From Nitrososphaera sp. (GTDB lineage: Archaea > Thermoproteota > Nitrososphaeria > Nitrososphaerales > Nitrososphaeraceae), in NCBI RefSeq assembly GCF_013388945.1, contig NZ_JACAEH010000009.1, positions 1 through 60,346 of the forward strand: a stretch of DNA of 60,346 nt, given 5' to 3'. The position numbers and the translations under genes are program-made. This document shows, in pieces, positions 2,314 to 38,874 of the stretch. A model generated the notes under the pieces. That model was not told the DNA's origin, ran no database searches, and saw nothing but the letters and a program-made list of their open reading frames with translations. Every line of letters begins with the position of its first letter. The stretch's first letter is position 1.

Positions 2314-2874
2314 ATGTCTGAATACAGGTTTACCGACGGCAACCTTCTCGTGCTTTACGCCGTCCACAAGGGCAGGACGCAGGACGGAAGCCTGCCCGAC
2401 TACATCCAAGAGCGCGTCAACTTGGCGCTTGAAACTTACAACACGATAGCCAAGTCGAGGCCGGACAGCCACAAGACCATGGTGATGATAGTGGGTGAAC
2501 CGGGGCCGTCAGAGAAGATCAAGGGCGCGCTCGTAAAAGGCGGAGTAAAGCCGGACATCATCGCAATCGACACCGACTCTAAAAACGTCGCGCACACGCT
2601 TGACCGGATTTACGAGATGGTGAGCAAAAAGCCAAACCCGCCTTTCATCTACTTTATCGCGTCAGTGTGGCTCCACGAGACATTCAATGCTACTGTGATA
2701 TCCAGCATGAAGAACATCCGCGTCCAGTTCTACGGCGCGCTTGACCACCGGCCGGTGCACGAAGTCGAGGCCGAGAAGGCGCTTGACGCGCCAAAGAAGG
2801 GCAAGGAGTACTACAAGCGCAAGATAACGAACAAGGCAGTCGACACGGTCCTGAACATAATTTTCCCAGATTGA
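2314..2874 (+). CDS. Conserved hypothetical protein, possibly YdcF/DUF218-like fold
   Basis: 186 residues from ATG 2314. This start is chosen because ATTATATTG at 2279-2287 is about 30 bases upstream, giving a leaderless transcript; the frame is open further upstream but without support. The order of a Rossmann-like strand (MVMIVGEPG, about 56-64), a GVKPDIIAIDTDSKNVAHT segment (about 75-93) and then FIYFIASVWLHETF recalls DUF218/YdcF proteins, where a similar S-x-N-T motif occurs. The key residues are not fully kept, so this is only a fold guess. The stop lies within the tRNA-Gly promoter. Confidence 0.65.
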   Translation: MSEYRFTDGNLLVLYAVHKGRTQDGSLPDYIQERVNLALETYNTIAKSRPDSHKTMVMIVGEPGPSEKIKGALVKGGVKPDIIAIDTDSKNVAHTLDRIYEMVSKKPNPPFIYFIASVWLHETFNATVISSMKNIRVQFYGALDHRPVHEVEAEKALDAPKKGKEYYKRKITNKAVDTVLNIIFPD

Positions 2875-2912
2875 AAGATTTAATATCCTTCGCCGCTTCG
2901 GCTACCGTAAGT

Positions 2913-3018
2913 GCGGTCATCGTCCAGTTTGGTCTAGGACACTGGCCTTCCAAGCCCGTAACCCGGGACCCGTTTCTCCAAAAAAGGGCGGGCGGGAATT
3001 CAAATCCCGGTGACCGCA
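2913..3018 (+). tRNA. tRNA-Gly (anticodon TCC) with a T-arm intron
   Basis: The acceptor arms GCGGTCA (2913-2919) and TGACCGC (3011-3017) pair fully, with discriminator A at 3018 and no encoded CCA. The D arm is GTCC/GGAC. The anticodon loop CTTCCAA carries TCC at 2949-2951. The anticodon stem has one U-C mismatch (2943/2957). The T arm is complete only if 2968-2998 is removed: CCGGG (2963-2967) then pairs with CCCGG (3006-3010) around loop TTCAAAT. The mature RNA is 75 nt. TATA box TTTAATATC (about 2878-2886) lies upstream. Gly identity follows from the anticodon and the GCGG acceptor start. Confidence 0.88.
2968..2998 (+). other. Noncanonical tRNA intron at position 53/54
   Basis: 31 nt interrupt the T arm. 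CCCG of the exon (2962-2965) can pair with CGGG at the intron 3' end (2993-2996), flanked by 3-nt bulges GGA and AAT. A second inner helix CCCG/CGGG follows. Cutting between the second and third base of both bulges restores the T-stem and loop exactly, as expected for a bulge-helix-bulge substrate of archaeal splicing endonuclease. The outer helix is weak, as in relaxed motifs. Confidence 0.8.
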
Positions 3019-3325
3019 CTTTACCAATCTTGTCAATAATTAGTGTTGACTCGACCTGAATTATAACAGAGATTTCAATTGTATTTGTCGTAAGATTTCT
3101 TGTATGGTCAAGGGGGGAGTTCTTCGGGGCCGGAACGCTATTTAAGTGCGGACTCTTTTTTGATCTCGAACACATGTTGATAGAATTCTAATATCGGGAG
3201 ATGGTTGCCATTGATACTACACAAAGGGTCGTCAAAACAACCTAGTTATCGGCCATTTATTGCCGGAAAGATTCTCTTATAGTACTTGTCCCAACTAGTT
3301 AGATGAATCGATCGGCAACCGAATA
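3019..3325. other. AT-rich gene-free stretch downstream of tRNA-Gly
   Basis: About 300 bases with no convincing gene. The base composition drops sharply from that of the upstream genes and stays low through the LanC-like gene. I looked for a second copy of the tRNA 3' end (a possible attachment site) here and at the far side of the accessory patch and saw none. ATTTAAG (3140-3146) and several A/T runs could be promoter elements, but no start follows at the right distance. Confidence 0.5.
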
Positions 3326-4303
3326 TCAGTCTTGAATTCGTTTGTCCCTTTGTTCTATGGGATCAAGTAGCAGTGGAAAGCTCAGTTTATCATTATTTGC
3401 AAACTTTAGAAAGAAATGCGAGATCCCGCTTCCACCGACCATAAGATCGCCTCTGGGAAAGTTTGGATCCTCTGTGAGCCAGCAAACAGAGTTATTTTCA
3501 GAATCACGTCCAAGACACTGTAGAGTACGGGCAATGTTTTTGGCTGATTCTAACCACCTCTCTTCTTTCAAGATTCTGAAGGCCTCAAGATATATTTCTC
3601 CCAATCCACTCAAGCCATGACATAAACTTAGATTTGAGAACCTAGGGTCAAGACTATGTACTCGTAGAGCTCTTTTTGCAATATCCGCGTATCTTTCTTC
3701 CCTTGTACGTTCATACAGTCTAAGAAATGTCAGCGCGATTCCAGGTGATCCATTACACCACCACTTCCATTTACTCTCATCCTGATTGCTAAAGTTCCAC
3801 TCTAGTGCCCCGCTGACTGGATTGGGAATGGAATTCTTTTCAAGCCATTCAACGCCTTTCTTCCATACTCTCTCAGCATTTGTATCATTGAAAATAAAGG
3901 CATATTCGGAAAGAAAATAGACTATTCCTGCGACCCCATGCGCGAATCCAGAGTAGACCGTGTCTTTCAGCGCGGATCCCCCATTAGAAAGACCCCAAGA
4001 GCCATCGCTCTTTTGAGAATTGATGAGATAGCTAGCGCATCTGCCTGAAAGCTCCATCATACTCTTGTTTTCGAGCCTACTTCCCACATATAGACAGGAA
4101 ACACCTTGACCAGCGGCACCATGTGTAAAATCGGGCCAGTCCACTCTCCCGTTCAAAATTTTTAGTATGAAGTTCTCGGTGTTTTCTTTTCTCTCGATCA
4201 AATTTGCTGCTATGGCTTCTGACAAGGCTGCAGCGACGCCAGCTTCTCCAAAATGAAGACCAGGTAAATCATTGTCGGGGTATGATAAGCCGTCACCCAT
4301 CAA
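3326..4303 (-). CDS. LanC-like lanthionine cyclase domain, apparently 5'-truncated
   Basis: 325 residues with the repeated GxxG motifs of the LanC double alpha-barrel: FGEAG (~18), HGAAG (~62), AHGVAG (~122), CNGSPG (~184), CHGLSG (~230) and GGSGIS (~292). All known zinc and acid-base residues are present: Cys in WCNG, Cys-His in LCHG, and His in FAHG. LanC enzymes add Cys thiols to dehydroamino acids in ribosomal peptides. The frame starts only a few residues before the first barrel motif and stays open upstream (...RTLSEWL) until it runs into the terminase gene, so an N-terminal part is probably missing (as if from a LanM/LanKC-type fusion). No precursor peptide was seen. AT-rich and foreign-looking. 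The first Met is TTG 4303 or ATG 4300. Confidence 0.75.
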   Translation of the reverse strand: MMGDGLSYPDNDLPGLHFGEAGVAAALSEAIAANLIERKENTENFILKILNGRVDWPDFTHGAAGQGVSCLYVGSRLENKSMMELSGRCASYLINSQKSDGSWGLSNGGSALKDTVYSGFAHGVAGIVYFLSEYAFIFNDTNAERVWKKGVEWLEKNSIPNPVSGALEWNFSNQDESKWKWWCNGSPGIALTFLRLYERTREERYADIAKRALRVHSLDPRFSNLSLCHGLSGLGEIYLEAFRILKEERWLESAKNIARTLQCLGRDSENNSVCWLTEDPNFPRGDLMVGGSGISHFFLKFANNDKLSFPLLLDPIEQRDKRIQD

Positions 4304-4307
4304 CCAT

Positions 4308-4805
4308 TCAGATAAAGTTCTCGCTCTCCGGGTTCCGTATGTAGAGCACCGTCACCTTTGTCGCCTCGTCCTTGAGCACCATGTCCCGGGACTTTGTGAT
4401 GAGCCACGGCCGGTACTTCTGGCTTTCAAGGATCAGCTTGCGGAGCGTGTACAGGTGCTCCCGGGCGTGCTGTATGGTCTGTGCTATCAGCAGCTGGTCG
4501 TATCCCCTGCATGACCGGGGGTGGTTTGAAGGCAGCACCGCAAGCTGAAAGTCGGCCATCAGAGTCGAGGTCGAAAGCCCTATCTTGTTTGACTTTATCA
4601 CAAGCACGCGCCCGCAGTCTAAAAGCGCCTTCCAAGTCTCTATCTGGTACGGCGCAAGGTGCAGAACCGGTTTTCTCGTCCGGGGGTGCGGCAGGTAGCC
4701 GAGGTCGGCATAGAACGAGCCCGGCTCCAACGGAATCTGCACGCCGGCAAGGTCGATGCCGCCGTCGCCCGCTGCGTCAACTTCTTTCTTAAGCCGGCTG
4801 AACAT
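4308..4805 (-). CDS. Phage-type terminase large subunit, N-terminal fragment
   Basis: 165 residues against an expected 450-600. After PYQIETWKALLDCGR (~75-89) comes a strand and a Walker-A-like loop, VLVIKSNKIGLST (~91-103), then an adenine-loop region (RGYDQLLIAQTIQHA). This matches the ATPase half of terminases that start packaging of viral DNA. The nuclease half is absent: the frame ends in NPESENFI and a TGA just where the AT-rich LanC-like sequence begins. Its 5' end overlaps the upstream HTH gene by 17 bases, a normal small-large terminase arrangement. Most likely a decayed provirus remnant. Confidence 0.65.
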   Translation of the reverse strand: MFSRLKKEVDAAGDGGIDLAGVQIPLEPGSFYADLGYLPHPRTRKPVLHLAPYQIETWKALLDCGRVLVIKSNKIGLSTSTLMADFQLAVLPSNHPRSCRGYDQLLIAQTIQHAREHLYTLRKLILESQKYRPWLITKSRDMVLKDEATKVTVLYIRNPESENFI

Positions 4806-5202
4806 TGCCCTTGCCTTCCTGCAACTTCCTCAGGGCGCGCTTGTACGCGTACACCGTCGGCGTCTCTCCAAGGAGTTCGAGGTACAGCTTTACGTTCTGG
4901 TCAAGCGCCCTGAGTATCTCGACCTTTTGTGCAACACCGTTTGCTTCAGCAAGCAGCTTTTGCAGCTCAAACTCGTGGTCGCGTATCTTTGCAAGCGCCA
5001 GGCGGTATTCGTGGATAAAGCCGTCCCTTGCAAGGTCGTCGAGCCAGCCCTTGGCTGCTCCCCTGATGTATGCGACGTCTCGTGCAACCGTAATCCTGTG
5101 GACTCCCATCAGCTCGGCGATGCTGCCCTCGGGGATCCCCTTGACCATGTAGTACGCCACCTTCTCCCTGCGCGCCCTGATTGCCGACTGGTTCACAGGC
5201 AC
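4789..5202 (-). CDS. HTH protein, probable terminase small subunit
   Basis: 137 residues with an N-terminal helix-turn-helix (about 12-45: EKVAYYMVKGIPEGSIAEL then GVHRITVARDVAYI) and a helical C-terminal part with heptad-like leucines, typical of DNA-recognising terminase small subunits. It overlaps the terminase large-subunit fragment. AAATTAGTT (about 5228-5236) lies about 28 bases upstream of ATG 5202 in its reading direction, fitting a leaderless start. GC content is like the host. Identity rests on the HTH plus the neighbour. Confidence 0.6.
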   Translation of the reverse strand: MPVNQSAIRARREKVAYYMVKGIPEGSIAELMGVHRITVARDVAYIRGAAKGWLDDLARDGFIHEYRLALAKIRDHEFELQKLLAEANGVAQKVEILRALDQNVKLYLELLGETPTVYAYKRALRKLQEGKGNVQPA

Positions 5203-5290
5203 AGTCTTGGACGCCGCGGGTATTGAGAACTAATTTCTTGGCTAGCCCATTTAAAAGAACTAACCCGAGCACGCGATTAAAGCGAGGACG

Positions 5291-5713
5291 CTAGCGCAGA
5301 AAAACGATGTCCTTGCCGAAATCCTTGAAATGCGGGTCGCCGGTCACAAAGGCGCAGCCAAGCACGACGGCGACGGCGTAGTTTAGCGAGTCCAGCATCC
5401 CCCAGCCCTTCACCTTCTTTTTCTGCTCAAAGTTCAGCTCGCCCGCCCTGTGGGCCACCTGCTCGTCGCAGGGGTAGATCTCGGTCCTGCTCCCGATGAA
5501 CTTTATAACCTGCCGTATCCTGGAGTGCTCCGTCCCCTCCCTCAGGAGCCTTTCTGTCAGCTCTGCTACGGCGGTTGCCGGCGTCACCAGCCGGCCAGAC
5601 TGCCCGTCCAGGATGCCGGCGACCTTCCTTGCGCCTTCGCCGCCGGCCAGGTAGTCTACCCATGCATAAGTGTCAAAGACGTGGCCGGCAATGGCGTCCT
5701 TTCTGGCGCTCAA
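5291..5713 (-). CDS. vapC: VapC-type PIN-domain toxin ribonuclease
   Basis: 140 residues with the PIN acid residues in place: D in FDTYAW (~14), E in AVAELTE (~49), D in GMLDSLNYA (~106) and D in FVTGDPHF (~125). PIN toxins of type II systems cleave RNA (often tRNA or rRNA) in a Mg-dependent way. It overlaps the preceding antitoxin gene by 4 bases (ATGA), the usual vapBC arrangement that ensures antitoxin is made first. All catalytic residues are present, so it is probably functional. Confidence 0.88.
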   Translation of the reverse strand: MSARKDAIAGHVFDTYAWVDYLAGGEGARKVAGILDGQSGRLVTPATAVAELTERLLREGTEHSRIRQVIKFIGSRTEIYPCDEQVAHRAGELNFEQKKKVKGWGMLDSLNYAVAVVLGCAFVTGDPHFKDFGKDIVFLR

Positions 5714-32225: not shown

Positions 32226-34556
32226 CTAGTGATCCTCGACGTCGATGTCGGCCTTTTCGACAAGGTCGGCGCGGGACTTTCTTGCAGACTCTACTAGCTT
32301 TTGGCGCCGCGGCTTCAGGACAAGGACGTACAGCGAACCGGCAAGGTACACGGCAAGGAGAATCACCTGCGCGACCACCGTCTCCAGCGTGGGGTGGATG
32401 CCAGTCATGGTGGCAAGGTTGATGTCAAGCCTCGGGATGGTGCCAATCATGTGCGTGGTCGGGAGGTAGCCTATCTCCTGGAACTCGCGCACCGCGTTGC
32501 CCATGAACGCGATTGACATGTATGCGCCGATTCCCATGGTGAGCCCGAAGAGCACGCGAAGCGGCAGCCTCTTTCCGAGTTTGCGCACGACAAAGGTCGT
32601 CCCGACTATAACTCCGAGTCCTGAAATTAGGCCAGCTGCCACGTACCACTCCATGTATTTTGCAAACGAGAGCATGGCCTGGTAGAAAAGCACGGTCTCA
32701 AATCCTTCCCTGTAGACCGTAAAGAAGGAGAGCATGACAAACACCATGACGCTGCCGGTGGTCGTGGCCTTCCACACCTTGGCTTTTACAAACTCGATCC
32801 ACTTTTTCGTCTCTACTTTGTTCAGGATCCAAAAGCTGACCCAGAACAGCACCGCTACCGCAGAGATGCCTGCGATGGCCTCTATCATCTCCCTGCCGGC
32901 TCCAGAAATGTCGATGATGTACTCGGCTGCAAACCAGGTCGCGGCGGTGCCTGCAAACGCAAGGACTATGCCGTAGTAGACGTGCTTTTTGAAGCGTTCG
33001 TTCCTTGAAGCCTCAAGGTAAGTAAGGATGGCGCCCACTATGAGCGCGGATTCCAGCCCCTCTCTGAAGATGATGGAAAACGAAGTTGAAAACGCTATGG
33101 TGGGCGCCACTATGCCCGTCCCCGAGACGAGGCGCTCCGACTCGTCCAGTCCCTGCTTTATCTCGGCAGTCTTGGCAAGCACCTGCTCGTATGGCGCGCC
33201 TGCCTGCATCAGGTTGCGCAGTTCCGCAAACTTGATCTCCATTTCAAGCGTAAAGTCGGGGTCTATTGGCCTGAGCGGGAGCTCGACGTTTTCATAGCTG
33301 TCAAGGTAGGCCGACCTTGCAGTGAGGATAGCGCCTTCCTTGTTCCCCTCCTGGTACAGGCGCAGTGTCTCGTCAAGTTTTATCCTTATCTGGTCTATGT
33401 GTGCCCTGACCTCGGCCTTGGCAGAGTCTTCAGCCTCTCCCCTTTCAAGGCGCTCGCCCTGGTAGGTGCCAAAGCCCTGGCTCAGGCCTTCAATGTTTGC
33501 AAAGCCTGCTTGTGTAGAGCTGCTTGTCCCCTGCAGCTCCGGGTCGCTGTCAAGTATCGCCTCTGCCTCGTCAAGCTTGGGAAGTATGCCGTTGACGAAT
33601 TCTTCTATGTCAGAAGGAGAGTCGCCGGCCTTTATCATCCTGCGAAGCTCCTCGCGCATCTCTATCTCTATTGTGACCATCAGGTCAGGGTTGTGCTTTT
33701 CAATCGGCGCTTCCAGGTACTCGTAGTTGTCAAGGTACGCAGTTATTGCGGCCTGGTCCGCGGCCTTGTAGTCGCCGGCCTTTACCGAATCGACGACCTT
33801 TGCCAAGAGCTCGCGGATGGTTGCAAAGTACTGCGTGTGCTGGCCGCCGGTCGCGCCCTCGCTCACCGTCAGATCCTCGGCAAGGTCGCGCTCTATTGCG
33901 TCGGCAAGGCGCCTCACGTCCTCTACCGGGGCCTTCTGGGCAAGGTTGGTCTCAATTTCTATAAAGAATGTCACTATCTCGCCGTTGCGCCTGTTGTCTA
34001 TCTGGTTGGATATTTCCTGATACCTCGACGCAGCCACATTCACCAGCCCCTGCGCGTTTTCGTAATCGACTGTATTTGCGCCGGATTCTGAAAGCTCGTA
34101 TGATTGGACCGCGTCGCGCAGCAAGAACACGACTGCCTGCGATATCATTCCCTTGTCTGCGGCAAGCGCTGGAAGCGCAAGGATTCCGTCTATCATCCCT
34201 TCAATGCGCTTGATTTCAGCAACTGCCTGCTCACCTGACAGCTCGCCTGACTTTATCTTGAGCGGGAGATCCGTCAGCGCCGCTTCGAGTTGCCCCGATG
34301 CTTGACTGTCTACGGCCTGCAGCTGCGGCTTAGCTGTAGGAAAGATAACGCTGTGCGGTATGAACGCGTGTGCAAACGCGCCTTCAGAGTCGCCTGCGCT
34401 GACCGCGTTTTCTGCAAGCAAGAGCTGTGCCCTTGTACGCTCCATGTTGACGATGATGATGAGCGCGCGGGCGTCGTCTGTCTGTGCCGATGCGACAGAG
34501 GGCGCAACAAGCGCGACGGACATCAACAGAACCAACGCCAGAGCAATTTTTCTCAT
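32226..34556 (-). CDS. Ftr1-family iron permease with repeated extracellular domain
   Basis: 776 residues. Signal peptide (1-24), then about 460 external residues with at least two tandem helical repeats (AYLDNYEYLEAPIEKHNPD... and AYLDSYENVELPLRPIDPD...). The seven-helix Ftr1 permease (~500-760) has both iron motifs, REGLES and REGFET. It carries iron inward, often after ferroxidation. A DtxR-type palindrome lies over the likely transcription start (34589-34606), so expression should fall when iron is plentiful. The ferroxidase partner is not in the window. Confidence 0.9.
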   Translation of the reverse strand: MRKIALALVLLMSVALVAPSVASAQTDDARALIIIVNMERTRAQLLLAENAVSAGDSEGAFAHAFIPHSVIFPTAKPQLQAVDSQASGQLEAALTDLPLKIKSGELSGEQAVAEIKRIEGMIDGILALPALAADKGMISQAVVFLLRDAVQSYELSESGANTVDYENAQGLVNVAASRYQEISNQIDNRRNGEIVTFFIEIETNLAQKAPVEDVRRLADAIERDLAEDLTVSEGATGGQHTQYFATIRELLAKVVDSVKAGDYKAADQAAITAYLDNYEYLEAPIEKHNPDLMVTIEIEMREELRRMIKAGDSPSDIEEFVNGILPKLDEAEAILDSDPELQGTSSSTQAGFANIEGLSQGFGTYQGERLERGEAEDSAKAEVRAHIDQIRIKLDETLRLYQEGNKEGAILTARSAYLDSYENVELPLRPIDPDFTLEMEIKFAELRNLMQAGAPYEQVLAKTAEIKQGLDESERLVSGTGIVAPTIAFSTSFSIIFREGLESALIVGAILTYLEASRNERFKKHVYYGIVLAFAGTAATWFAAEYIIDISGAGREMIEAIAGISAVAVLFWVSFWILNKVETKKWIEFVKAKVWKATTTGSVMVFVMLSFFTVYREGFETVLFYQAMLSFAKYMEWYVAAGLISGLGVIVGTTFVVRKLGKRLPLRVLFGLTMGIGAYMSIAFMGNAVREFQEIGYLPTTHMIGTIPRLDINLATMTGIHPTLETVVAQVILLAVYLAGSLYVLVLKPRRQKLVESARKSRADLVEKADIDVEDH

Positions 34557-34588
34557 CTCAAACCACCGGACCGCCCGCAGGGCGGCAC

Positions 34589-34606
34589 AATTAGGCTTAC
34601 CTAATT
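34589..34606. promoter_or_regulatory. DtxR/IdeR-type iron box at the ftr1 promoter
   Basis: AATTAGG-CTTA-CCTAATT is a perfect 7+7 palindrome with a 4-base spacer, close to known DtxR-family sites (TTAGG...CCTAA). The ftr1 TATA (TTTAAATATA on the minus strand, 34613-34622) lies just upstream, so the palindrome covers the expected transcription start. Confidence 0.75.
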
Positions 34607-34654
34607 CCTGACTATATTTAAACCATGTTTGCGCTTGCAGGAAATGAGAAGGGG

Positions 34655-34664
34655 AGGCTTACCT
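34655..34664. promoter_or_regulatory. Second iron-box core upstream of ftr1
   Basis: AGGCTTACCT repeats the ten central bases of the 34589-34606 site, 62 bp farther upstream. The outer bases are not symmetrical, so it would be a weaker site. Confidence 0.5.
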
Positions 34665-34748
34665 TGAAGCATTTATTGAAAAAGAGTGCGCTTCAATCGG
34701 GTTAATCATATTGCGCTCTGGCGTAGGCAGATACGGTCGTAAGGGTAA

Positions 34749-35258
34749 TTAGCGACCGATTGTTCTCCTTATGTTTGCAGATTCTTTTACCATTTTCGCA
34801 ATTAGGAAACCCAAGTCAGTAATTACGGCCTCTATCAATGCAGTTTCGTTAGAAAATGGTCCTCTTATTCGGATATCATATTGCTTCACTTCTGCTCTAA
34901 GAAATTCATCGACGTTGCTGCGGCCCCTAATAACAGACTTTATTCTCTTGTTCTTTCTAAATCTGTAAATCAAGACGGGCATCATTCTTGAATATGCCTT
35001 CCTGAATTCTTCTACCGTAATTTCGGAGTACACTTGTCCGAAAATACCAACATAGATAGCAGAGTCACTAAGGCCCTCGTCAATGTCTGATTGGATGCTA
35101 GTTCCTTTCTTGGATTCAACTAGAATGGCTCTAAGCATTTTTTGGTAGGCTAACTCAACATCATCTATTTCTGTTTTCAGATTTTTCCGGAGTCTCTCAA
35201 ACTCTTTTTGAGATGAGCTTATGAATACCTTGATAGGTTCGACCTTATCTTCGTTCAA
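34749..35258 (-). CDS. DUF4062-domain protein
   Basis: 169 residues. The opening KVFISSSQKEFERLRKNLKTEI (9-30) is the DUF4062 signature, followed by a GTSIQSDIDEGLSDSAIYVGIFG region (~52-75), typical of this TIR-like alpha/beta fold. DUF4062 domains are often at the N-terminus of NTPase or TPR proteins in signalling and immune systems; here the domain stands alone with a short helical tail. AT-rich, 24 bases downstream of a small HTH gene. Confidence 0.7.
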   Translation of the reverse strand: MNEDKVEPIKVFISSSQKEFERLRKNLKTEIDDVELAYQKMLRAILVESKKGTSIQSDIDEGLSDSAIYVGIFGQVYSEITVEEFRKAYSRMMPVLIYRFRKNKRIKSVIRGRSNVDEFLRAEVKQYDIRIRGPFSNETALIEAVITDLGFLIAKMVKESANIRRTIGR

Positions 35259-35282
35259 AAAGTATTCACCAAAGATATGCCA

Positions 35283-35528
35283 CTATTTCTTCTTCTTGGC
35301 ACTCTTTTTTCTCAGCCTGCTCAATTCCACTGAAACATGAGTTGGACTTATGCCCAAAATTTGGGCAATTTCACTTGCACGGAGACCCGCGGCGTTCAAG
35401 ATTTCGACCTTTCTGGCGGTTGCTACTTCATCGCTGGGTTCGGCGGACATTAGCATCATGCTAATAAGCACATCGAGCCGCTTGATTATTCTTCTCAGTT
35501 CTACAAGTTCAGCAGTATTTTCGCTCAA
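35283..35528 (-). CDS. Small HTH protein, member G of the seven-gene family
   Basis: 81 residues. An N-terminal helix (RRIIKRLDVLISMMLM) is followed by an HTH with sigma-region-4-like spacing (VEILNAAGLRASEIAQILGISPTHVSVELSRLRKK) and a KKKK tail. This is the clearest HTH of the family. It is detached from the other six and has its own A/T promoter (AAATATTTAAG, 35572-35582). It precedes the DUF4062 gene closely. Confidence 0.75.
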   Translation of the reverse strand: MSENTAELVELRRIIKRLDVLISMMLMSAEPSDEVATARKVEILNAAGLRASEIAQILGISPTHVSVELSRLRKKSAKKKK

Positions 35529-35623
35529 ATCTCATGCTCACCCGTACCTGCTATCTTGACCGCTGTCATGCAAATATTTAAGCCTGTTCGCATGTTATAG
35601 ATCGGACAAGCCCAGTCGAACAT

Positions 35624-36325
35624 CTATATTTTCTTCTCCAAGGTACTGATCATGTCAATAATGCTTTGGACTTCTGCATCTTCCAGTTCCTTCGGCCTTT
35701 TTACAATATGATACCATGAATGTGCCTTGTCGTTAGCGTCGTCCTTGAATACATCTGCCTTGGTCAGAATACGTTCAAGCAGTGTTTTTTCCGCGCCAAA
35801 GTCATTTGCGCGAGTTCGTAGGTTCTTCAAGATTTCCGAAAAGTCTCTAGTTCTTCTTCGCGAAGTATCAAAATAGAGTTCGATGTTTGCCAGTGTATTT
35901 TGCGGAAATTTCTTTCTTATAATATCGGTAAGCAGATTCTCAATAATCTTGCGGCATAATATGAAGGCCGCCGTATATGCTCCAAAAGTATAGCATTTGT
36001 TAACCTCATCAATATGAGCTCTGATGAATGGGTCTACAGTATCATATTTGATGAACTGTTTAACTTGCCGTTTCTTATCATTACTAGCGGTTTTCTTGAT
36101 TATAGTCGTAGGCTTTTGAATATCCAGATGAGGGAAAGTTTTTTTCTCTTCCGGAGTAAGTTTTGACCTCACCGAAAGCCCGCGCTCTAATGCATAGACC
36201 TGAGCCACCTGATTCATTGTTAGACTGCTATATCGCTGGTGAAGCTTGGCGAGCCCGTTCCGCACACTTTTCTCTTTCTTGCCTGTCTTCTTTACCAAGT
36301 ACTTGAGAATAGCCAGATTTAGCAT
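35624..36325 (-). CDS. HEPN/DUF4145-like protein with N-terminal HTH-like domain
   Basis: 233 residues. The first 60 form a helical domain (TGKKEKSVRNGLAKLHQRYSSLTMNQVAQVYALERGLSV). A basic linker follows, then a helical domain starting HIDEVNKCYTFGAYTAAFILCRKIIENLL (~115) that resembles HEPN/DUF4145 domains. The canonical RxxxxH ribonuclease motif is not evident. It starts 4 bases after the last small HTH gene, so it is the downstream cargo of that operon. AT-rich. Function unknown; the HEPN reading is by eye. Confidence 0.65.
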   Translation of the reverse strand: MLNLAILKYLVKKTGKKEKSVRNGLAKLHQRYSSLTMNQVAQVYALERGLSVRSKLTPEEKKTFPHLDIQKPTTIIKKTASNDKKRQVKQFIKYDTVDPFIRAHIDEVNKCYTFGAYTAAFILCRKIIENLLTDIIRKKFPQNTLANIELYFDTSRRRTRDFSEILKNLRTRANDFGAEKTLLERILTKADVFKDDANDKAHSWYHIVKRPKELEDAEVQSIIDMISTLEKKI

Positions 36326-36329
36326 CTAA

Positions 36330-36509
36330 TCATCTAGAGTTTTTCTTTAGATTCTTGAGCAGCTTTCTAGCAGGAAAAGCTCTACTAAAGTCCGCAGGAT
36401 CCATTCCAATAAGTTCCGCCAGATCAGAAGCAGCAACACCATTCACAAGTAATTGGACTACCAATAGTTTCTTGATGTCTTGTAGCTCTTTGAGTTCGTT
36501 ATCGCTCAT
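36330..36509 (-). CDS. Small HTH protein, member F (59 residues)
   Basis: 59 residues from ATG 36509, overlapping the preceding gene by 4 bases (ATGA). It has the same plan as its neighbours but shortened: an N-terminal helix with DIKKLLVVQLLVNG, the HTH VAASDLAELIGMDPADFSRAF, and a basic end (KLLKNLKKNSR). Easily missed because of size; overlap on both sides and family resemblance support it. Confidence 0.65.
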   Translation of the reverse strand: MSDNELKELQDIKKLLVVQLLVNGVAASDLAELIGMDPADFSRAFPARKLLKNLKKNSR

Positions 36510-36709
36510 TTCCTAGTCTGCCTCAAAGCTGAATTCACTCTTGCTCTTTTTTCGCCCAGTAATTTGACAATATCTGATTCCTTCAATCCAATCTTGCTAA
36601 GAGAATGAACTTTGTCTTTAAACTCTAAGTCTTTAACTAGATTCAATAACAAAGCCTTCGTCATTAAATCCAATTTTTTGTTTATTGCGTCAAATTGTAC
36701 TTCATTCAT
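36506..36709 (-). CDS. Small HTH protein, member E
   Basis: 67 residues. The N-terminal helix with NKKLDLMTKALLLN, then VHSLSKIGLKESDIVKLLGEKRARVNSALRQ, keeps the family plan. Overlaps its neighbours by 4 bases on each side. Confidence 0.7.
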   Translation of the reverse strand: MNEVQFDAINKKLDLMTKALLLNLVKDLEFKDKVHSLSKIGLKESDIVKLLGEKRARVNSALRQTRK

Positions 36710-36945
36710 TTCTTCTTATCTCTCCTCATTTTGCTAATTTCTGTTCGGACTGCACTATCTGGCCAGCCAATCAGTTTTCCAATCTCAACACTTTTCAAAC
36801 CACCAGAGTATAACATGCGAATTTGATCGGCTTTTGTTATTTTCTTATCTTGCGTTCTTTGTCTATCCAGTAATAGCATAATTATTATGTCAAGTCGATT
36901 ACTTAATGCATCTTCACTATTAGTTTCCGGATTATTCCTTGTCAT
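36706..36945 (-). CDS. Small HTH protein, member D
   Basis: 79 residues from MTRNN (36945); an earlier ATG at 36993 would overlap the upstream gene much more. SNRLDIIIMLLLDRQ forms the first helix, then QIRMLYSGGLKSVEIGKLIGWPDSAVRTEISKMRRDKKK. The closest match to members B and G. Confidence 0.72.
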   Translation of the reverse strand: MTRNNPETNSEDALSNRLDIIIMLLLDRQRTQDKKITKADQIRMLYSGGLKSVEIGKLIGWPDSAVRTEISKMRRDKKK

Positions 36946-37138
36946 TCTTATTCCTCTGAATCTTGTTGAAAGAACTGGCGAATAACCTTTCAATTGTCTT
37001 TGAGCTGACTCCTAGAATTTTAGCAATCTCCGACTGCGTCAGACCACGGTCTGCTAGCATAAGCACGATTATCATGTCTAACCGTTTTGAAATATCGCCT
37101 AGCTTTCTATCATCTTTCATTTCTTCGTTCTTACTCAT
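36932..37138 (-). CDS. Small HTH protein, member C
   Basis: 68 residues from MSKNEE (37138); an upstream ATG at 37150 is possible. SKRLDMIIVLMLADRGLTQSEIAKILG is followed directly by VSSKTIERLFASSFNKIQ. It lacks the spacer present between helix and HTH in members A, B and D. Overlaps both neighbours. Confidence 0.72.
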   Translation of the reverse strand: MSKNEEMKDDRKLGDISKRLDMIIVLMLADRGLTQSEIAKILGVSSKTIERLFASSFNKIQRNKNDKE

Positions 37139-37394
37139 TCGCTTTCCCACGTTTTTTCATCTTCTTTGCATTGGTACGCATGGCCGCCACATTCTTTCGT
37201 TCATACCCAATAATATTTCCAATTTCAGTATCAGTAAGTCCAATAGAATGTAATCCGAGTACTTGGTCAATTCTAGTTATCCTTTTGTTTTTTTCACTTG
37301 CCAATTGACCATCAAGCAAGAGTCTGATTATGGCGTCTAGTCGCTTTGCAGTCGGATCTCGTTTTTCTGACACTTCAATTTTCTTATTCTTCAT
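37131..37394 (-). CDS. Small HTH protein, member B
   Basis: 87 residues. AKRLDAIIRLLLDGQ is the family helix, with a basic spacer, then the HTH IDQVLGLHSIGLTDTEIGNIIGYERKNVAAM and a Lys-rich tail. Overlaps member A by 11 bases. Confidence 0.72.
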   Translation of the reverse strand: MKNKKIEVSEKRDPTAKRLDAIIRLLLDGQLASEKNKRITRIDQVLGLHSIGLTDTEIGNIIGYERKNVAAMRTNAKKMKKRGKANE

Positions 37395-37650
37395 TTTCTT
37401 TCCTCGTCTTGATCTTGACTTTGAATCTGCTAATTCGCTTCTTTACCGCATCTTCAGATAAGCCAAAATACTCGCCGATTTCAGCATATTTCATACCTGC
37501 CTTGGCGAGGCATTGTATTGCTTTTGTCTGATTAGGATCGCTGACTACGTTGAAAATCAGAAGTTTAACTACAGAATCTAGTTTTGCGTCGATAGACTTC
37601 AATAGATCAAGCTCGATATCATTGGATCTAGAAGATTTTTCACTTCGCAT
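37384..37650 (-). CDS. Small HTH protein, member A, first gene of the operon
   Basis: 88 residues. SIDAKLDSVVKLLIFN is the family helix; QCLAKAGMKYAEIGEYFGLSEDAVKKRISRFKVKIK is an HTH much like sigma region 4. ATG 37650 lies 27 bases from the TATA box at 37674-37680, so the operon starts here with a leaderless message. Confidence 0.75.
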   Translation of the reverse strand: MRSEKSSRSNDIELDLLKSIDAKLDSVVKLLIFNVVSDPNQTKAIQCLAKAGMKYAEIGEYFGLSEDAVKKRISRFKVKIKTRKENEE

Positions 37651-37673
37651 GTCCCGGTTTATGAAAAAATAAC

Positions 37674-37680
37674 TAATATA
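37674..37680 (-). promoter_or_regulatory. TATA box of the small-HTH operon
   Basis: TATATTA read on the minus strand, centred 27 bases upstream of ATG 37650. No other A/T box at suitable distance occurs before members B-F, so they depend on this promoter. Confidence 0.65.
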
Positions 37681-37834
37681 CTCGCTCTTAACTTTATCGC
37701 ATTATAGTGAATTAAGTCGAATTTTGCGCGGATTATCTAAACAGTAATTTGGCATACAACTCAGGTTCAGAGCAAGCAGTTTAGACATAAAAAAGCTTGT
37801 TCAAAAAGATAGAAAAGTGGCGGGTAAGAAACTC

Positions 37835-38440
37835 TTACCTTGAAGCCATCGCGATTCTTTCTTGCTCGTTCTTTTTCTTGACGGCATGGCTTGCCATGTC
37901 GTTGTTTGACGCCAGGATTATCTCCTTTGCCAGCGCTTCTTCAACAGTCTGCGGGCTGCTGTATGCCGATTCTTTCACGCCTTCTGCGATGAAGCGCAGC
38001 GCCAGGTCGACCCTGCGCAGTGGCGCGACGTCGACTGAAACGTGGTACACGACGCCTCCGTAGACTATGCGCGTGGTGTCCTCGTTTGGCGACGAGTTTT
38101 CTATCGCCCTGACCAAGAGCTCTACAGGGTTCTTGCCGGTTTCAAGGTGGATAATGTCAAAGGCAGTCCTTACCATGTTGAGCGCGCGTGCCTTCTTGCC
38201 TCCCATCCTGCCGGTGTTCTTGGCATACTTTTTGCCGAAGTGCATCATCTTGTTTGCGAGGCGCTCGACGATGTTGACCTCTGCCTTTTTCAGCCTCTGG
38301 TGCTCGTGTCTGCCAAAGGTGTTCGGGAGCACGGCCGGCCTCAGAGATATTGCAGTCTTTAATCCGAGGTCGTTTACGTCTATTTCCTTCGTGTCCCACT
38401 TGTTGAAAAGCAGGATGCTTGCTTGCTCTTTTCCGCTCAT
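37835..38440 (-). CDS. rps7: Ribosomal protein S7 (uS7)
   Basis: 201 residues from ATG 38440, which overlaps the rps12 stop by 4 bases. uS7 features include [29 protein letters not shown] and the C-terminal [19 protein letters not shown]. It binds the 3' major domain of 16S rRNA. Last gene of the RNA-polymerase/ribosomal operon in this window; tuf does not follow. The operon ends next to the AT-rich small-HTH block. Confidence 0.97.
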
Positions 38441-38874
38441 CTTCTCGGCTTCTCCTTTCTGCCGTATACGAGCTCTTTCAGTGAAACGCCGTTTACCTTG
38501 AAGACCTGCCACCTGACGCCGGGGATGTCGCCCATAGCGCCGCCCATCGAGCCTCCGATGCCGCCTATGATGACCTCGTCATGCTCGTCTACAAAGTTGA
38601 GCGCGCCGTCCCTTGGAAGGAATGCGGTCACGGACTTGCCGTTCTTTATCAATTGAACCCTGACGCACTTGCGCACGGCAGAGTTTGGCTGCTTGGACTC
38701 GATGCCAACCTTCTCTAGCACGATGCCCCTTGCCTGCGGCGCCCCTTCAAGCGGGTTTGCCTTCTTGTCGAGCATGAGCATGCGCCTCTTGTAGTACTTG
38801 TCCGCCCATCTGCCGCGGCTCTTTTTGCTTCGGAGCACGCCGCCTGCGAATAACCCTAGTGGAGATTTACCCAT
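38437..38874 (-). CDS. rps12: Ribosomal protein S12 (uS12)
   Basis: 145 residues with the decoding-site signature [20 protein letters not shown] (~61-80) and [19 protein letters not shown]. It contacts the codon-anticodon helix in the 30S A site. Overlaps nusA by 8 bases and rps7 by 4. Confidence 0.98.

Follow-up and report, generated by a model that had tools for sequence, protein, structure and literature searches.

A contig of Nitrososphaera sp. (NCBI RefSeq assembly GCF_013388945.1, contig NZ_JACAEH010000009.1, positions 1 to 60,346), the whole of which is here called the window (60,346 nucleotides), contains an AT-rich block encoding seven small helix-turn-helix (HTH) proteins (A to G), a putative effector with a DUF4145-like HEPN domain, and a stand-alone DUF4062 protein. 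With somewhat better than even confidence, these genes are read here as a mobile archaeal cassette of the abortive-infection type. Its HTH subunits, a fixed set, would control a swappable effector docked by its N-terminal domain, and it is probably a kind of archaeal defence module that has not been described before. The evidence comes from the relationships among the small HTH proteins of the window and of other archaeal loci (cited by L numbers; genomes by G numbers), from the effectors encoded behind them, and from the genes around them. Archaeal immunity beyond CRISPR and restriction-modification (R-M) is poorly charted, and genes so small are easily missed by annotation and family searches.

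Subunit types and operon structure of the small HTH arrays

The nine genes lie on the minus strand and are transcribed in the order A, B, C, D, E, F, effector, G, DUF4062. Gene A (37384-37650; 88 residues) opens the array and is followed by B (37131-37394; 87 residues), C (36932-37138; 68 residues), D (36706-36945; 79 residues), E (36506-36709; 67 residues) and F (36330-36509; 59 residues), with overlaps of 11, 8, 14, 4, and 4 bases at the successive junctions, and the effector gene (35624-36325; 233 residues) starts 4 bases past F. A gap of 95 bases precedes G (35283-35528; 81 residues), which forms a second unit with the DUF4062 gene (34749-35258; 169 residues). All of these positions, and the close spacing from A to the effector, are as given in the original prediction, which had been made from the sequence and its open reading frames (ORFs) only.

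That prediction had also assigned A-G one shared plan, comprising a short N-terminal helix with an LDxII motif, a spacer of variable length, an HTH, and a basic tail. A hidden Markov model (HMM) built from 64 small HTH proteins of other arrays, all window sequences being excluded, was searched against the 495 window ORFs of at least 40 residues and matched exactly A-G, with E-values from 9e-18 to 4e-9 (A, 8.1e-12; B, 4.6e-15; C, 5.6e-10; D, 2.6e-14; E, 1.2e-11; F, 4.4e-9; G, 9e-18); the next ORF stood at 0.0025. With the nearest relative, the L013 locus, excluded as well, all seven were still found at about 1e-7 or better. By this profile comparison, the homology of A-G is real and they constitute one family, although the plan itself is not uniform: C and F belong to a short sub-type that lacks the spacer, and F also lacks the LDxII motif. 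In the AlphaFold2 model of D (mean pLDDT 82), the N-terminal helix is long and leads into an HTH of three helices. Its Foldseek neighbours are generic HTH proteins (resolvase, ParB, and sigma-4), none of them significant. The Pfam scores of most array members are below the cut-offs, and PADLOC gave a confident match for none of them; E-values of 0.02 and 0.011 for G and E as relatives of PADLOC PDC-M64B/C were too weak to use.

Genome searches with effector and HTH profiles (which yielded L134-L141 and L147-L150) bring the number of loci that encode members of this small HTH family to 18, namely the window and 17 others, in Nitrososphaeria and two DPANN-like phyla; the array is thus not confined to one assembly. 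At least two small HTH genes are present in 17 of the 18 loci, and the remaining one (L139) has one such gene plus several winged-HTH genes. The array count leaves out single HTH matches of about 100-135 residues from other Thermoproteota (L142-L146). In complete cassettes, two to six HTH genes overlap one another and lead without a break into a single effector gene. Junctions were measured in 12 loci: none of the 54 is longer than 15 bases, and at 44 the genes overlap or abut. The occurrence of arrays is low and patchy, with two in 70 genomes of the window's family, about eight in 279 genomes of the DPANN phylum to which L015 belongs, and one clear array among the 196 genomes from the phylum of L017.

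The relationships among the subunits are the most surprising result of the analysis. In a tree of 71 small HTH proteins from the window and the other arrays, the proteins group by type across arrays and not by array. The types include a short one, usually beside the effector and most often directly before it, to which window F belongs; one ending in GWKRK; one with window E, common to L015_4427, L134_5722, and L137_6559; one with window G, which groups with L147_5517; one with window B and D; and others. The nearest neighbour lies in a different array for 67 of the 71 proteins, local duplicate pairs number three, and array membership leaves no nearest-neighbour signal (0.944 observed, 0.947 after shuffling). 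Window B, for example, is closest to the gene that opens the L013 array, with an alignment score of 243 to L013_4381 vs. 120 to window D. Recent tandem duplication as the origin of the arrays is ruled out, except for the three pairs, because the nearest neighbours of 67 of the 71 lie in other arrays. Judged from these comparisons, the arrays are assemblies of old, distinct subunits whose types are older than the arrays themselves. The same types occur, moreover, in arrays with different kinds of effector. Such conservation would be expected if each subunit had its own role within a common complex, and it fits the hetero-oligomeric or combinatorial set that the original prediction had suggested.

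These results bear on the reading in which the small proteins regulate the transcription of host genes in the ordinary way, or as sigma-like factors, and were duplicated in tandem by chance. It could draw on Pfam resemblances to Sigma70_r4 and HTH_23, which are weak (A matches Sigma70_r4_2 at 26.6 bits, cut-off 25.7; C matches HTH_23 at 27.8 bits and Sigma70_r4 at 27.0 bits, both above cut-off), and the three-helix HTH is a likeness to both families. On the other hand, the subunits are not recent duplicates; they have a constant effector partner and a defence context, and they are absent from nearly all relatives. No significant sigma match was obtained with Foldseek, and neither region 2 nor any other polymerase-binding region was found in these proteins of 59-88 residues, which consist of the HTH only and differ from the sigma-70 and HTH_23 families also in their extra N-terminal helix and in being strictly clustered paralogues. 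This reading is therefore regarded as very improbable, and of the sigma-like factors first proposed nothing is left beyond a generic HTH resemblance.

Exchange of effectors behind the arrays

The predicted structure of the window effector (AlphaFold2 model, pLDDT 84.8) comprises a three-helix N-terminal domain (about residues 1-63), a disordered linker, and a C-terminal HEPN fold (about residues 98-233). Its best Foldseek match is the archaeal HEPN protein 2q00 (probability 0.98; template modelling score of the target 0.66), followed by 1ufb, 1wol, and HepT (7bxo), the E-values all being above 0.001; on the model, then, the protein has the HEPN four-helix fold. The earlier assignment to HEPN/DUF4145 accordingly holds for the fold and only weakly by Pfam, where the protein scores 15.0 bits vs. 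a curated cut-off of 23.1 for DUF4145 (PF13643; E-value 0.026) and can be called only DUF4145-like. No PADLOC model matched the window HEPN. Residues 1-63 resemble the archaeal Rpa1 AROD (Foldseek probability 0.92; profile E-value about 0.3-0.6), a likeness that is suggestive only and was not used.

Full-length orthologues of this effector, 44-56% identical, are present in five other archaea: a Nitrososphaeraceae metagenome-assembled genome (MAG; L013), another thaumarchaeon (L014), a Nanoarchaeota MAG (L015), archaeon CSMAG_1761 (L016), and archaeon LFW-281_7 (L017). In each, one to six small HTH genes stand directly upstream of the orthologue; in L014, a single gene lies upstream, another lies downstream, and two more are divergent. 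The combination of the shared N-terminal domain with a DUF4145-like HEPN domain occurs in eight loci, including the window. In four loci, the shared domain goes with a HEPN of the Swt1 type, and the effector is elsewhere a Ymh HEPN protein or one with a Schlafen AlbA_2 domain.

In L149 (= L057) and L150 (= L061), the match to the window effector family is limited to residues 4-70 and 1-90, respectively. The remainder of the L149 effector is a HEPN_Swt1 domain (PF18731, 33.4 bits, cut-off 27.5; PADLOC PDC-M34B, 6e-25), and that of L150 is sub-threshold for HEPN_Swt1 (17.2 vs. 27.5 bits) and matches PDC-M34B at 6e-18. The L140 effector combines the N-terminal domain (E-value 2.6e-10, independent of the training set) with HEPN_Swt1 (28.9 bits, cut-off 27.5), and the L139 effector combines a marginal match to the N-terminal domain (E-value 0.009) with HEPN_Swt1 (46.1 bits, same cut-off). 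The L136 array ends in a Ymh-type HEPN protein (24.9 bits vs. a cut-off of 25), and the L135 array in a winged-HTH plus Schlafen AlbA_2 protein. The catalytic Rx4-6H motif is intact in the Swt1 and Ymh effectors, reading RNLIAH in L149, RHLLAH in L140, RNVVAH in L139, and RNCLAH in L150 among the former. By contrast with these cassettes, HEPN relatives without the N-terminal domain (L056, L058-L060, and L062-L074) have no array. Exchange of the effector behind a shared N-terminal domain is thus shown at the level of sequence.

Other loci depart from these arrangements. In L138 (4949-6953), the HTH array is followed, at the usual effector position, by proteins of 103 and 137 residues of no recognised family, which are a candidate new effector; in L134 (6599-7471), a 290-residue protein without a Pfam or PADLOC match takes that position after six HTH genes; and L137 (6386-10941) has a divergent array, with three genes on the minus strand and four to five on the plus strand, that adjoins a phage-type integrase and has no recognised effector. 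The family profile could serve as a search tool for more effectors.

A second family, of winged-HTH proteins of about 90-130 residues with a similar N-terminal helix, recurs in array operons, often in several copies: L134 (6124-6411), L137 (7388-7672 and 8097-8411), L139 (5764-7140), L140 (5813-6097 and 7147-7440), L141 (4821-5545 and 6077-6442), and L147 (5236-5508, 6649-6942, and 7234-7548).

The 169-residue DUF4062 protein of the window (PF13271, 27.3 bits, cut-off 24.7) is an accessory. Of the downstream genes that the original prediction expected to accompany the array, the HEPN effector does so and DUF4062 does not: it was seen with an array only in the window, and its relative in G006 has none, so that it was rejected as a constant partner. 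G and DUF4062, paired in the window only, may constitute a second effector unit.

Lateral insertion and the defence neighbourhood

The block (34557-37834, about 3.3 kb, ends approximate) lies between a gene for an FTR1-like permease (32226-34556) and rps7 (37835-38512). Its GC content is 0.387 vs. 0.560 in the flanks, and in three sister species of the same genus the rps7/permease site is empty, with spacings of 127 bp (G042), 93 bp (G040), and 66 bp (G029). In a further sister species (G026), an unrelated gene for 326 residues occupies the same rps7 site (C1:2271272-2272252; L168:8773-9753). Eight sister genomes were compared in all, and four of them (G027, G041, G034, and G032) differ in gene order after rps7. 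The block is thus a lateral insertion at a variable site, because its GC content is low and the site is empty in sister species; its acquired origin, read earlier from base composition, is borne out, whereas its placement as the downstream end of the rpo-rps operon is not, since it is inserted beyond rps7 and does not continue that operon. The different gene in G026 suggests that the site adjacent to rps7 is an insertion hot spot. A second AT-rich stretch of the window (3001-4000) has a GC content of 0.426 vs. about 0.56.

Genes of defence and conflict systems adjoin many of the arrays. In L150, the cassette is embedded in an hsd operon in the order HsdM-HsdS-[four HTHs-HEPN]-HsdR. In L148, four HTH genes and a HEPN gene that overlaps a ResIII helicase gene by 4 bases have an N6_N4 DNA methylase upstream, and in L149 a CfrBI endonuclease lies upstream and GmrSD downstream. 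Other neighbours are an Eco57I-type R-M enzyme (L015), a DUF6036 nucleotidyltransferase (L016), a DNA methylase (L017), phage integrases (L134 and L137), Mrr (L135), an OLD-like protein (L141), and a Cas1 (L139) that could be a casposase. Directly downstream of the HTH/HEPN_Swt1 cassette of L140, a 909-residue fusion of EVE, GmrSD_N, and Schlafen AlbA_2 (2772-5501) looks like a type IV restriction fusion. With PADLOC, 88 flank proteins (at least 200 residues, E-value at most 1e-15) matched 224 families, R-M methylases foremost, and 88 proteins from arbitrary places in some of the same genomes matched 21, none of them R-M; as the counts are of families and not proteins, and related families match one protein, the ratio of 224 to 21 is indicative only. 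The conflict module with a HEPN effector that was first proposed is well supported by the HEPN and other nuclease-type effectors and by R-M, GmrSD, Mrr, OLD, and integrase neighbours, far above the same-genome control, and a role in defence against viruses is accordingly read from gene context.

The same neighbourhoods might instead reflect an integrated mobile element, such as an integrative element or a casposon, in which these genes are cargo or serve replication control and have no role in defence. The integrases near L134 and L137, the Cas1 in L139, and the insertion at a variable site are what such an element would leave; the window block, however, holds no integrase, replication, or capsid gene, the cassettes of L148 and L150 are embedded in R-M operons, and no viral or phage relatives were found, all of which makes this explanation improbable.

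A more serious, if still unlikely, alternative is an elaborate toxin-antitoxin operon, in which the HTH proteins serve as antitoxins and repress their own operon, the toxin is encoded last, and persistence is due to addiction and not immunity. It would account for the antitoxin-first order, the tight translational coupling, the HTH fold, and the HEPN effector, as well as for the patchy, mobile distribution, the nearby integrases, and the toxin-antitoxin-like DUF6036 neighbour in L016. Type II toxin-antitoxin modules normally have one antitoxin. Here, two to six different and separately conserved subunit types accompany each effector in most loci, in place of one antitoxin and one toxin per operon, and the cassette is not a standard type II module because it has several different partner genes. 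Furthermore, the effectors are exchanged while the HTH types stay, and embedding in R-M operons suggests a defence role.

Proposed working of the cassette and relation to known systems

In the abortive-infection reading preferred here, the input side would be the set of different small HTH subunits, each with an N-terminal helix, a three-helix domain predicted to bind DNA, and a basic tail, produced from one translationally coupled operon. The subunits probably associate via their N-terminal helices into a multi-subunit platform on DNA. The output side would be the single effector, translated last, whose N-terminal domain would dock on the HTH set and whose C-terminal part (a DUF4145-like, Swt1, or Ymh HEPN domain or a Schlafen AlbA_2 domain) would be exchangeable. 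In a guard mode, the DNA-bound set would silence the effector and repress the operon until an invader disturbs it; this guard or repressor mode is judged slightly more likely than active recognition of invader DNA.

The latter corresponds to a direct sensor array, in which each HTH reads one DNA element and the joint surface brings the effector to the DNA or transcripts of an invader. Conserved, non-redundant subunit types, a sigma-4-like HTH with a basic tail, and the shared N-terminal domain of the effectors as a docking part would all suit such a sensor; no target motif is known, however, and fixed types common to distant archaea are unlike a diversifying recognition set, and we consider it rather unlikely. 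A single anatomy underlies the guard, antitoxin, and sensor modes; these readings overlap in part, and the confidence given to one does not exclude another. It is also tempting to speculate, tentatively, that a hetero-oligomer of tiny HTH subunits, fixed in composition, serves as a multi-chain DNA-reading sensor that recruits interchangeable effectors via a shared docking domain, which would be new for archaeal innate immunity.

Several observations weigh against the abortive-infection reading. The window effector lacks the catalytic Rx4-6H motif and has KDDANDKxH in its place, as do six relatives, L148 being an exception that keeps Rx5H (RANEMAH); its RNase activity is, on this sequence evidence, doubtful, and it may be a divergent or inactive HEPN protein because of this replacement. 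The docking role of the N-terminal domain is suggested by its co-occurrence with the arrays. No recognised effector is present in L137, L138, and L141. An operator search upstream of A and G gave no convincing repeat, nor did the region before A show a conserved operator. No R-M genes were seen in the flanks of the window, L013, and L014. Scans of viral contigs (for the effector families and for single HTH proteins) and tblastn against phages gave no relatives, nor did tblastn against plasmids with queries other than the window HEPN; the latter query retrieved only two weak haloarchaeal HEPN relatives, which have no array and a different N-terminus that is AbiJ_NTD5-like at sub-threshold level. 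One distant HEPN relative with such an N-terminus, on a Halosegnis marinus plasmid (L020:4761-5570), adjoins a DUF1156 gene.

If the abortive-infection reading is true, a single modular cassette is spread over Thermoproteota and DPANN, can be plugged into R-M operons, and exchanges its effector while keeping its subunit set, and each subunit type is predicted to have a distinct job in one complex. The effector domains are already known; the array and its modular coupling to the effector are new as far as tested, no description of HTH arrays of this kind having been found in PADLOC or in the portion of the open literature covered, outside which subscription papers and preprints largely fall.

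Among candidate systems in PADLOC, the closest is PDC-M34, whose component B is a HEPN_Swt1 protein matched by the C-terminal part of the L149 effector, but the HTH proteins have no match in PDC-M34. With the HEPN-MNT and other type II toxin-antitoxin modules (PMC7641770), the cassette shares a small operon, a HEPN effector, and possible repression by a partner protein; the partner is, however, a set of different HTH proteins and not one nucleotidyltransferase or antitoxin. In the passages of Anantharaman (2013; PMC3710099) that deal with AbiJ, conserved N-terminal domains (AbiJ-NTD1-5) are joined to different HEPN or nuclease domains and linked to R-M operons. An N-terminal domain common to different effectors and a link to R-M operons are found in both systems, whereas the N-terminal domain of the cassette is another one, with no AbiJ_NTD match in the window, L149, and L150 effectors, and those passages describe no small-HTH array for AbiJ. 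PrrC, according to the same source (PMC3710099), is a HEPN RNase encoded in an hsd operon, a second-line suicide effector held silent by HsdMSR (PrrI, type Ic R-M). The HEPN protein of L150 is likewise encoded within an hsd operon (hsdM-hsdS-[array-HEPN]-hsdR); PrrC, however, has its own ABC ATPase, and the cassette has two to six small HTH proteins and no ATPase, the ABC ATPase domain characteristic of PrrC/RloC being absent from the cassette effectors of 233-281 residues. Because of the lack of an ABC ATPase and of an AbiJ-NTD, the cassette belongs to neither system, and PrrC silenced by HsdMSR and the N-terminal domains of AbiJ are its nearest working precedents.

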